From Actinomyces haliotis (lineage in GTDB: Bacteria; Actinomycetota; Actinomycetes; Actinomycetales; Actinomycetaceae): a stretch of DNA of 64,000 nt. The notes beneath the pieces were generated by a model. It saw only the letters and a program-made list of their open reading frames with translations, was not told the DNA's origin and did not search any database. Both the position numbers and the translations under genes were made by a program. Below, piece after piece: positions 51,668 through 57,362 of the stretch (the stretch's first letter is position 1; the number at the start of each line of letters is the position of its first letter). The stretch covers positions 1 through 64,000 of the forward strand of contig NZ_JACWNA010000020.1 in the NCBI RefSeq assembly GCF_015355765.1, written 5' to 3'.

Positions 51668-54075
51668 TCACTCCGCGACGTAGCGGGCCAGGTAGTCGCC
51701 CGTGACAGAAGGCGATCCCTCGCCAGCCCCAGAGCGCGCCTGCTCGACCAGCGCGGCCGGCGTACCTGTGAAGACGACGCGTCCGCCGTCGTGGCCGGCT
51801 CCCGGACCCATGTCGATGATCCAGTCGGCGTGGGCCATGACGGCGAGGTGGTGCTCGATGACGACGACGGTCCGTCCGGCCTCGACGAGGTGGTCGAGAA
51901 GGCTGAGCATGGCCTCGACGTCGGCGAGGTGGAGGCCGACGGTGGGTTCGTCGAGGACGATGACGTCGTCCTCCTCGCCGAGGTGCACCGCGAGCTTGAG
52001 GCGCTGGCGCTCGCCTTCCGAGAGCGTGGAGAGGGCCTGGCCGATGCGGACGTAGCCGAGGCCGACGTCGTGGAGCCGCTGGAGGATCCTCGTCGCGGCG
52101 GCGACCTTGGTCACCTTGGCAGTGAAGAGCTCGAGGGCGTCGTCGACGGGCATGTCGAGGACGTCGGCGATTGACGGGCCGGTGGCGCCGTCGTCGGCCG
52201 GGCCGTCGAGCCGGTACTGGAGGACGTCGTTGCTGTAGCGGCGCCCGCCGCAGGCCTCGCAGACCGTGGTGACGGTCTCCATGAAGCCGAGCTCGGTGTC
52301 GATGACCCCGGCGCCGTTGCACACGGGGCAGGCGCCCTCGGAGTTCGCGGAGAAGAGGGCGGGCTTGACGTTGTTGGCCTTGGCGAAGGCCTTGCGGATC
52401 GGGTCGAGGAGGCCGGTGTAGGTGGCGGGGTTGGAACGGCGCGAGCCCGTGATGGGGGACTGGTCGATGGTGGCGACGCCGTCCATGGGGGAGAGGCTGC
52501 CGTGGATGAGGCTGGACTTCCCGGAGCCCGCGACGCCGGTGACGACGGTGAGGACACCCCGGGGGACGTCGACGTCGACGTCGTCGAGGTTGTTGGTGGA
52601 GGCGCCGCGGATCTCGATGGTGCCGGTGGGGGTGCGGACGGTGTCCTTGAGCCGGGCGCGGTCGGCGAGGTGGCGGCCGGTGAGCGTGTCGGAGGCGCGC
52701 AGCCCGGCGACGTCTCCCTCGTAGGTGACCTGCCCGCCGTGGCTGCCGGCGCGGGGCCCGAGGCCGACGACGTGGTCCGCGATGGCGATGGTCTCGGGCT
52801 TGTGCTCGACGACGAGCACCGTGTTGCCCTTGTCGCGCAGGGACAGGAGAAGCTCGTTCATGCGCGCGAGGTCGTGCGGGTGCAGGCCGATCGAGGGCTC
52901 GTCGAAGACGTAGGTGACGTCGGCCAGGGCGCTGGCGAGGTGGCGGACGAGCTTCATGCGCTACGCCTGACCCCCGGAGAGCGTCGAGGCCGTGCGGTCC
53001 AGAGAGAGGTATCCCAGGCCGATGGTGCAGAAGCCGTCGAGGGTGGCGCGCAGGCGTGTGAGCAGCGGCGCGGCGGCGGCGATGCCGGGGACGGCGCGGG
53101 CGTCGTCGGGCGCGTCAGTGCGGCCGAGTGCCGCGGCCTCGAGGCGGTGCACCCACTGCGCGAGGTCGCTCACCTGCATCGCGCAGGCGTCGGCGATGGA
53201 GACGCCGGCGATGGTGGCGGTGCGGGCCAGCTCGGCGAGTCGGGTGCCGCCGCACTCGGGGCAGGGCTGGAAGACGACGGCGCGCTCGACGAAGGTGCGC
53301 GTCTGGGGTTGGAGGGCCTCGACGTCCCTGGAGAGGATCGACTTGCGGATCTTGGGGACGAGGCCCTCGTAGGTCAGTCGATCTTGACCTTCGTCGGCTC
53401 CTTGTAGAGGAAGTCGTCGAGCTGCTTGGGGGTGAAGGTGCTGATGGGCTCGTCACCGGGGAAGAAGGCGGACTCCATGAAGACGCGGACCCACCAGCCG
53501 TCGGGGGTGTAGCCGGGGACCTTGATGGCGCCGTCGCGCAGGGAGAGAGTCTCGTCGTAGAGCTCGGTGAGGTCGATGTCGGAGACCTGGCCGGTGCCGT
53601 CGCAGCGCGGGCACATCCCGCCCTGAACCGTGTAGTGCTTGCGCTCGGTGACGGTGCGGCCGTTCTTGACGGTCTTGAGGGCGCCGCCCCCGGAGACGGA
53701 GGGGACGTTGAAGGCGAGGGCCTGCGGGGAGCCGATCTGCGGGGTGGACAGGTGCGAGAAGAGGACCCGCAGAGCACCGTTGACGTCGCTGGCGGTGCCC
53801 AGGGTGGAGCGCGTATTGGCTCCGAGGCGCTCCTGGTCGACCAGGAGCGCCGGGGTGAGGCCCTCGAGGCGGTCGACGTCCGGGTGAGCCGTCGACGGCA
53901 TGAAGCCCTGGATGAAGCTGGAGTAGGTCTCATTGGTGAGGCGGCGCTTGGGGATGGTGACATCGACGCCGCGCAGGTTGTTCTCGCGCGCGCCGACGAC
54001 GGTGATGACGTCGTGCGCGTCGGGTGCGGCGGGCGTGGGAGAGAGGTCCGGGTCGGCGGGGCTCGTGGTGGTCAC
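51668..54075 (-). pseudogene. UvrA-like ABC ATPase (UvrA paralogue), inactivated
   Basis: Read through its lesions, this is the compact UvrA-like family (about 750-800 residues) associated with drug resistance. Three lesions are visible. First, at about 53934 the text jumps from IPKRRLT to NETYSSFIQGFMPS, losing the first Walker A and its neighbours (about 25-30 residues). Second, after PTKVKID a TGA stop occurs at 53374-53376 and the frame shifts, continuing LTYEGLVPKIRKSIL. Third, GGQA is followed by TAG at 52961-52963 where the family has Gln (GGEAQR), a CAG-to-TAG change. The rest is well kept: CPECGGTRL, DEPSIGLHPHD, the second Walker A TGVAGSGKSSL, CPVCNGAGVI and DEPTVGLH. Decay is therefore recent. 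Confidence 0.88.
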
Positions 54076-56007: not shown

Positions 56008-56058
56008 ACGCGTCGTGGACCCTTGATGGAGGACCTCGGTGCCCGCAACATTCGTTGC

Positions 56059-56430
56059 ATGGCTATCACGAGCATCCAGACGCTCACCGTCTTCGTCTCC
56101 GACCAGGACCGCGCACGCGACTTCTACGTCGACGTCCTCGGCATGGAGGTCAAGCTCGACCAGACGATGGGGGACTACCGCTGGCTCGAGGTCGGCACCC
56201 AGCAGGGCCCGAGCCTCACGCTCCACAAGCCCTTCCCGCGTGCCGCCGCGGGCGGCTCCACGGGCATCATCGTCACCTGCGAGGACATCGACGCCGAGTG
56301 CGAGCGGCTCAAGGCGGCAGGCGTCGACGTCTCGGGGCCGAAGGACGAGGTCTGGGGCCGCGAGGCGGTCCCGCGCGACCCCGACGGCAACCTCTTCGTC
56401 CTGCACACGCAGGAGACCTACGGGCTCTGA
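56059..56430 (+). CDS. VOC (glyoxalase/bleomycin-resistance) family protein
   Basis: This 123-residue protein has two beta-alpha-beta-beta-beta modules: TVFVSDQDRARDFYVDVLGM and TCEDIDAECERLKAAGVDV, ending EAVPRDPDGNLFVLHTQ. Metal ligands could be the Glu in FYVDVLGMEV and E in the last strand region, but the His of true glyoxalase I at the N-terminus is not evident, so the reaction is open. ATG 56059 fits homologues. An upstream in-frame ATG at 56023 would add 12 residues. GGAGG at 56026 would serve neither start well. Confidence 0.8.
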   Translation: MAITSIQTLTVFVSDQDRARDFYVDVLGMEVKLDQTMGDYRWLEVGTQQGPSLTLHKPFPRAAAGGSTGIIVTCEDIDAECERLKAAGVDVSGPKDEVWGREAVPRDPDGNLFVLHTQETYGL

Positions 56431-56888
56431 GTTCGCGCGACGGCTTGGCCCGAGCTCGTACGTCTTATGTCAGAACACGACGTGCCGGAGCTCTTCTGAC
56501 TGGCTCTGCTGAGCCCGAGGAGGGGTGAGGGCCGTCCGCGTCCGGGATCCGACAGTGACGCGCGCCTGGCGACGAGGGCAGGGACGGCCGAGCGCCTGAT
56601 CGGGCGCCAAGGGCTCTGCCCACCGGGCGAGTGTCCTGGCCGCCGCGGTACGTGCTGACCACGAGAGCGCGTCACAGATGGAACCTCGGTGCGACACTGA
56701 GAGTGATCGGCCTGCTGCTGTCACTGAGATTCAGCGAGGAGGTCCCTGACGCGCCCTGGTGGACAGAGGGACTCGGAGACCCTCCGCCGATAATGTACAT
56801 TATGTCAAACTCGCTACGTGGTCCGCTCTTCCACCACGGGCTGCGCCGGAGTCCGGCCGTCTGGACTCGATCTGATGGGATCTCGTCG
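56431..56888. other. Gene-free region around the dif site
   Basis: About 460 bp with no reading frame that looks coding on either strand. GC content drops around 56690-56830. Apart from the dif-like sequence, no repeat, tRNA or IS end was recognised. Confidence 0.5.
56783..56810 (+). other. dif: Candidate chromosome dimer resolution site dif
   Basis: The 28-bp site has a left (XerC) arm TCCGCCGATAA, central hexamer TGTACA and right (XerD) arm TTATGTCAAAC. The layout is 11-6-11, as in E. coli dif, whose XerD arm is TTATGTTAAAT and whose left arm also ends ATAA. The inner ATAATGTACATTAT is a perfect 14-bp palindrome. It lies in an intergenic, less GC-rich stretch. It should be the substrate of XerC/XerD at the replication terminus. 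A dif-like site carried by a Xer-using mobile element is the alternative, but no element is seen beside it. Confidence 0.85.
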
Positions 56889-57362
56889 TCAGCGCTGCTC
56901 GTGCTGGATGCGGGTCGTCGTCGCACCCGCACCCACGAAGCTCATCTGCTCCTGGAACGACTGAGTCGCGCGGCGTGCAGCCACCGTGGCCCAGAGCACG
57001 GACCCGCCCGTCACCATCGTGAACGCGCCGAGCGGCCAGCACACGACCGCCGCGATGCCGCTCGTCAGGGCGATCATCGCCAGACCGATGAGCATGACCG
57101 CGATCCCCGTCGCGATGCCGACGCGCCACACGCTGCCCAGGATCCTGCTGCGCGGCGCCCCGGCTGACGCACCGCCGATCGTGAAGGAACGGACGACGAA
57201 GGCCGGCTGTCCCTCGGGTCCGGCGGCGCCGCCGGCGGAGCGGGCAGCATCGGGTCCGGTCAGCGGGTTCCCGTTCTCGTCGATGTACTCGACCGCGCTC
57301 CTGGAACGGCTCGTGGGCCGCCGCTGGGTGGTGCTCTGCGAGGTGCTCTGCTCCGTGGACAT
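56889..57362 (-). CDS. Small membrane protein of unknown function
   Basis: This 157-residue protein has a Ser/Thr/Gln-rich N-terminus (about 1-70, containing SAVEYIDENGNPLTGPDAA), then two hydrophobic helices (about 83-103 and 106-127), and a short polar tail ending IQHEQR. No family is recognised. No partner gene shares its strand nearby. It is the first gene past the dif site. The coding assignment rests on length, charge pattern and membrane segments. Confidence 0.6.
   Translation of the reverse strand: MSTEQSTSQSTTQRRPTSRSRSAVEYIDENGNPLTGPDAARSAGGAAGPEGQPAFVVRSFTIGGASAGAPRSRILGSVWRVGIATGIAVMLIGLAMIALTSGIAAVVCWPLGAFTMVTGGSVLWATVAARRATQSFQEQMSFVGAGATTTRIQHEQR

Follow-up and report, generated by a model that had tools for sequence, protein, structure and literature searches.

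The dif site of Actinomyces haliotis and oriented XerD-arm half-sites near dif in Actinomycetaceae

Introduction

Within a 64,000-nt window of the Actinomyces haliotis genome (the whole stretch of DNA analyzed here, part of an 80.5-kb contig), a 28-bp word with two arms around a short centre lies between two genes, and a second word resembling only one of these arms lies a few hundred bases upstream. This raises two questions, namely whether the 28-bp word is the site at which chromosome dimers are resolved, and what a lone arm would do beside it. Sites of this kind (dif) have been predicted in 66 of 66 actinobacterial genomes, the one of Frankia alni reading CACGCCGATAATGCACATTATGTCAAGT (PMC3025954); according to that report, no actinobacterial dif had been experimentally confirmed at the time.

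A single dif site opposite the replication origin

The 28-mer, TCCGCCGATAA-TGTACA-TTATGTCAAAC on the forward strand (Table 1), had been proposed as dif in an earlier sequence-only reading of the window, based on its 11-6-11 layout and TGTACA centre, and comparison bore this out. Allowing up to three mismatches, it was matched once in the window and in none of 100 shuffles. At the same tolerance, the dif core CCGATAATNNACATTATGTC had a single match in the entire A. haliotis genome (42 contigs, 2,678,437 bases, 99.99% complete), i.e., no second equally good site, and a reversed control pattern had none. The core is conserved across the order: of 99 genomes, 95 have it, including 49/49 Actinomyces, and no match with ≤3 mismatches was seen in G069, G074, G090, and G097; since the reversed control yielded nine matches in seven of the 99 genomes, some of these three-mismatch matches are due to chance. 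G031, whose XerD is the closest (97% identical), has a letter-identical 28-mer within poorly alignable flanks. The site is identical to E. coli dif at 20 of 28 positions, and to the published F. alni dif at 23 of 28 (PMC3025954). It resembles other actinobacterial dif sites in its length, layout, CCGATAA and TTATGTC cores, single copy, location opposite dnaA in relatives, and association with encoded XerC, XerD, and FtsK, while the five letters that set it apart from F. alni dif are confined to the centre and the outer ends of the arms. We regard it as virtually certain that this 28-mer is the dif site of the chromosome and of the canonical actinobacterial kind. Such an identification is ordinary; a dif is expected in every such chromosome. 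Two side observations concern dif sites elsewhere: G084 carries two dif-like sites in opposite orientation ~2.2 kb apart (G084:C1:179296-181496, L243), which may delimit a mobile element that uses Xer, and in G082:C12 and G093:C3 the contig ends 79 and ~103 bases past dif, respectively, as though a repeat or an inserted element adjoined dif.

The predicted placement at the replication terminus also held, with the position being read from relatives because the A. haliotis assembly is fragmented: in 21/21 relatives checked, the distance from dif to dnaA amounts to 43.5–49.9% of the chromosome by the shorter arc. Unexpectedly, xerD is close to dif, at 26–132 kb, in 21/21 Actinomyces genomes that are closed or nearly so. 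A. haliotis encodes two tyrosine recombinases detected by PF00589, the first of which exceeds the XerD cut-off, while the second scores best against XerC and remains under the cut-off for that family (306 of 335 bits). An FtsK with a gamma domain and an SMC (TIGR02168 over cut-off, G000:C8:14180-17953) are encoded as well. Separately, the XerD of G004, G036, G033, and G028 matches as two segments, with additional residues around position 243–246 inside a single open frame, an insert that was not seen in the other members of the two XerD searches.

Base composition provided a mixed picture of the terminus. The GC-skew switch anticipated at dif was recovered as a weak switch in the closest closed relative, G031, where a sample of 20 stretches gave mean skews of −0.029 and +0.030 on the two replichores (p = 0.01), and local skew was noisy in the window and its 80.5-kb contig, with no extremum exactly at dif. 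The KOPS-like word GGGNAGGG, counted over 49 loci, occurred 60 times on the plus and 53 times on the minus strand upstream of dif, and 35 and 153 times, respectively, downstream; other words disagree, and polarity over six KOPS-like words was inconsistent.

The gene-free region of about 460 bp noted around dif was confirmed at ~458 bp, between a glyoxalase-domain open reading frame (ORF) and an ORF of 157 codons on the opposite strand (Table 1). By eye, the latter product is similar to that of a small ORF following dif in G004, G033, G036, and G048. Further upstream, a uvrA-like gene (window 51671–54054, minus strand) reads in two frames meeting near 53380–53389, and one-frame homologs of 858 and 849 aa exist in G036 and G004, respectively; the split may reflect decay or a sequencing error.

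Table 1 Features of the dif locus in the A. haliotis window
Feature	Position	Strand	Remarks
Glyoxalase-domain protein, left neighbour	56056–56430	+	PF00903, E = 9.8e-18
Gene-free stretch holding dif and half-site	56431–56888		~458 bp
Imperfect inverted repeat, half-site in loop	56452–56493		Arms 56452–56464 and 56479–56493, read from sequence
Accessory XerD-arm half-site (candidate), CTTATGTCAGAA	56464–56475	+	Arm-like part 56465–56475; points at dif
dif site, 28 bp	56783–56810	+	Unique in 2.68-Mb genome; conserved in 95/99 genomes
dif, XerC arm	56783–56793	+	
dif, central region	56794–56799	+	
dif, XerD arm	56800–56810	+	
157-aa protein, right neighbour	56889–57362	−	No Pfam/NCBIfam match

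An oriented half-site beside dif in Actinomyces

The half-site lies upstream of dif, at a start-to-start distance of 319 bp, and matches the dif of its own genome at 9 of 11 letters in the XerD arm, compared to 4/11 on the XerC side and 1/6 in the centre. Over both strands of the whole 80.5-kb contig, TTATGTC occurs in two places only, which are the XerD arm of dif and position 56465. The 12-mer CTTATGTCAGAA was found in 5 of the 99 genomes, each time 323–689 bp from dif on the XerC side, in the same orientation and pointing at dif, while a longer word, the 15-mer CTTATGTCAGAACAC, was restricted to the A. haliotis genome (1/59).

To place this word in a broader context, we analyzed the dif loci (up to ±10 kb) of 49 Actinomyces. 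In these loci, all 17 copies of the word CTTATGTCA lay no farther than 700 bp from dif; 11 of the 17 were upstream on the plus strand, five downstream on the minus strand, and one downstream on the plus strand. For the shorter TTATGTC, 18 convergent sites and one divergent site were detected within 1 kb of dif, where 0.37 would be expected per orientation, and only six in the remaining 863 kb. This convergent enrichment (p = 1.8e-24) ranked first among 210 letter permutations, and the XerC-arm control CCGATAA gave no convergent, two divergent, and 22 distal matches. When the four genomes in which the word was first sighted were removed, 12 sites were left (p = 1e-14), and without the coding cases and the window, 11 were left (p = 3e-13). 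Because the genomes are related, they are not independent samples, and all half-site p-values reported here are optimistic.

A convergent TTATGTC within 1 kb was present in only 16 of the 49 Actinomyces; the naeslundii/oris group, for example, yielded no half-site. Its distribution implies at least nine gains or losses on a quick XerD tree, in which 20 of 47 inner branches are unresolved; G009 and G034, which carry the variant TTATGAC, were counted among the genomes without a half-site. A search for another companion motif in 31 Actinomyces without a half-site was discarded, the top k-mers (CTTAGGG, TGAGGTAA, AATATGAG, and AGAAAGTG) being mostly shared homologous sequence.

In the window, the half-site is enclosed by the arms of an imperfect inverted repeat, which may be a terminator of the upstream gene. 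The half-sites of G051, G238, and G101, near −530 to −500 from dif, likewise occupy the loop of such a repeat or of a hairpin resembling a terminator. An RNA hairpin as the cause of the half-site was considered and set aside, as the fold of the 91-nt segment is not unusual (z = −0.95).

Half-sites in other genera and families

We next turned to the rest of the family, using ±4 kb on either side of dif in 60 genomes that represent 16 other genera. These were drawn from at least 163 other-genus genomes, the choice being made by genus and without prior view of the flanks. Within 1 kb of dif, 27 convergent TTATGTC sites were found against 1.9 expected (p = 6e-22), again first of 210 permutations, along with a mild enrichment in divergent sites (7, p = 0.004) and 11 sites further out in 360 kb. 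Inspection by eye marked 11 of the 27 convergent sites as unclear or potentially coding; with these removed, the 16 retained ones were still in excess (p = 3e-10). Convergent sites were present in 19 of these 60 genomes; together with the 16 of 49 Actinomyces, this indicates that the half-site is not required everywhere.

Signals were weaker in the remaining sets. An earlier set of 12 other members of the family showed a slight excess (two convergent sites, p = 0.057), and 33 genomes from other families yielded four convergent (p = 0.013) and two divergent (p = 0.23) sites. Among 67 named non-Actinomyces loci, six convergent (p = 0.047) and five divergent (p = 0.12) sites were detected, i.e., without orientation. 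In assembling dif loci, 80 of 102 matching stretches were available from one collection, many with dif near one end, and G064 was left out. Given the weaker excess in other families, the phenomenon is clear in Actinomycetaceae and doubtful beyond.

Some individual loci displayed unusual arrangements. In G142 and G114, three TTATGTC and one TTATGAC form a tandem array about −645 to −590 from dif, spaced by 19, 22, and 12 bp. In G080 (L227), a XerD arm with unusual letters is repeated, along with eight flanking bases (TTATGTCCGTTCGCGGGAA), 38 bp downstream of the arm of dif itself. An apparent co-variation of a TTATGTCC arm with its companion, noted in G228, G183, and G056, was not retained, as a conserved reading frame runs through these sites.

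Letters and coding contexts of the half-sites

Alignment of the 18 Actinomyces sites showed that constraint covers the preceding base (C in 17/18) and the arm, TTATGTCA-n-W-h, and then fades. Letters shared with the dif of the same genome number 8–11 in the 11-bp XerD arm, 0–6 among the 11 positions of the XerC side, and 0–2 among the six of the centre, and none of the 18 has a XerC or central-region match. In the 16 retained sites from other genera, the base before the arm is A or G, so that the preceding C is an Actinomyces feature.

These patterns bear on the possibility that half-sites are scars, left by Xer-dependent mobile elements (IMEX) or by earlier dif positions, whose XerC side has decayed. 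Xer-using elements do leave partial sites, and the two opposed dif-like sites of G084 and the repeated arm of G080 would fit such an origin; a decayed dif, however, would not be expected to carry C before TTATG, where dif has A, nor to lack any remnant of the XerC side or central region in all 18 Actinomyces sites, and scars are not expected to persist in rare codons across divergent genes. Scars thus appear to be a quite unlikely source of the half-sites. The same alignment bears on a polar fork trap near dif, in which the sites would be bound by a Tus- or RTP-like protein and their likeness to the XerD arm would be incidental. Such a trap could account for the sites of G004 and G036, which are inverted about dif, and for the tandem copies in G142 and G114, but not readily for constrained letters that match the 11-bp XerD arm and stop where the arm stops, nor for the 11/11 identity to the genome's own dif arm in 3/18 Actinomyces and 4/16 other-genus sites, and we consider it very unlikely.

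The sequence contexts of the half-sites are diverse. The site in the window is intergenic. In six Actinomyces genomes, the site lies in sense orientation in a homologous GNAT acetyltransferase gene (PF13302 in the two tested), where the six share a Tyr-Val codon pair. Elsewhere, it is antisense in a uvrA-like gene (two genomes), antisense in an unnamed ORF (two genomes), or located 5′ of a small ORF that follows dif (at least four genomes). Coding half-sites use rare codons, including ATA (0.017 of Ile), AGT (0.03 of Ser), AGG (0.065 of Arg), and TAT (0.098 of Tyr). These differing contexts and rare codons indicate that the DNA, rather than the protein, is selected at half-sites.

This also informs the simplest alternative, i.e., an ordinary dif only, with an arm-like word that arose by chance or as a by-product of conserved coding sequence. 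The six sites in a single homologous GNAT gene, several other-genus sites in conserved reading frames, and the two thirds of genomes without a half-site are in line with this alternative. On the other hand, the enrichment persists in both sets once coding cases are removed, TTATGTC ranks first of its letter permutations in both, and sites occur in intergenic DNA and in rare codons on both strands of unrelated genes, all of which make chance or coding by-product highly improbable. The half-sites are non-random, oriented, and under selection, and we are confident that they represent a real DNA element. XerD is their likely binding partner.

The XerD-arm word away from dif

Genome-wide, CTTATGTCA was detected 49 times in 22 genomes, or ~2 per genome, with 7 of the 49 lying within 1 kb of dif as judged by eye. 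In many genomes, the word CTTATGTCATTC also occurs within a conserved promoter-like element ~280–530 kb from dif, where it points away from dif, and in 9 of 14 other places that were read, the XerD-arm word is inside such an element far from dif. The A. haliotis copy (G000:C9:16239, L197; equivalents at L198, L199, L201–L205, and L210) consists of CCTCAACCTCAAGTTGAGG, followed by ATACTTATGTCATTC and GATGAC, and contains the full XerD-arm word; its CCTCAACCTCAAGTTGAGG part resembles a MerR/SoxR box. No Rfam match was found at five far CTTATGTCA places. As this element carries the XerD-arm word, the word has another use and is not reserved for the terminus.

Discussion

A possible function for a XerD arm separate from dif is suggested by Bacillus subtilis, in which the XDS of Karaboja et al. 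(2021) are reportedly XerD sites that unload Smc-ScpAB. Unloading of SMC by XerD on its site at the B. subtilis terminus, the site being termed XDS, is described in PMC10945525 (also PMC12322038 and PMC8669397), and one study inferred SMC unloading at dif more widely (PMC13342612). Since XerD-bound sites unload SMC in B. subtilis, we propose an SMC-unloading, XerD-holding role for the half-sites. At dif itself, the left arm would be occupied by XerC and the right by XerD, and activation of the pair by FtsK, located at the division septum, would resolve a chromosome dimer into two monomers. A half-site cannot recombine, because it is devoid of a XerC arm or central region; instead, it may be a landing site that keeps XerD beside dif, and SMC complexes arriving from the origin would then meet the bound XerD and be unloaded before they run over dif. 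Overall, we lean slightly towards a locus made of dif and accessory XerD-only half-sites that probably work like the SMC-unloading XerD sites of B. subtilis. Taken by itself, the suggestion that the half-site serves SMC unloading is tentative, and we would put it a little short of an even chance.

The half-sites could alternatively tune dimer resolution, with extra XerD being loaded on them, or pushed from them to dif by FtsK, in a way that raises synapsis or provides directionality. Their mostly convergent orientation and the presence of the FtsK gamma domain are compatible with such tuning. To our knowledge, however, no chromosomal dif requires an accessory half-site. The accessory sequences of plasmid cer, which involve PepA and ArgR, differ in kind (PMC5357621), and tuning of dimer resolution seems unlikely overall.

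Compared to known terminus systems, the proposed XerD-holding half-sites are closest to XDS: both are XerD-type sequences near the terminus and apart from the full dif, in genomes that encode SMC. The candidate half-sites differ in lying within 0.7 kb of dif in Actinomyces and in being present in only about one third of genomes. With the Tus/Ter system of E. coli and the RTP/Ter system of B. subtilis, the half-sites have in common that they are short polar sites flanking the terminus and mostly pointing inward, but unlike these, their letters match the XerD arm. MatP on matS is the unloader of MukBEF in E. coli (PMC8669397, PMC10945525); if half-sites do unload SMC, the two systems would both clear the terminus of SMC-type complexes in a sequence-specific manner, with a different protein and motif, and with matS sites scattered over hundreds of kb rather than located <1 kb from dif. 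A literature search, judged by titles and the opening of abstracts, returned no paper on such XerD half-sites in Actinomycetota, which is weak evidence for novelty as most subscription journals were outside the search.

For Actinomycetaceae as a whole, it is possible, if not quite probable, that XerD-only half-sites located some hundreds of bases from dif, and for the most part oriented towards it, are dedicated to unloading SMC or to otherwise holding XerD at the terminus. If so, they would add a hitherto undescribed component to the dif locus of Actinomycetota, one that is able to evolve: it would have come and gone repeatedly and have entered even protein-coding sequence, where rare codons are the price. 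Such half-sites would make it testable whether XerD unloads SMC at dedicated sites outside Bacillota, and whether such sites must point at dif. Importantly, because some closely related species carry a half-site and others do not, a natural comparison is available for both questions.
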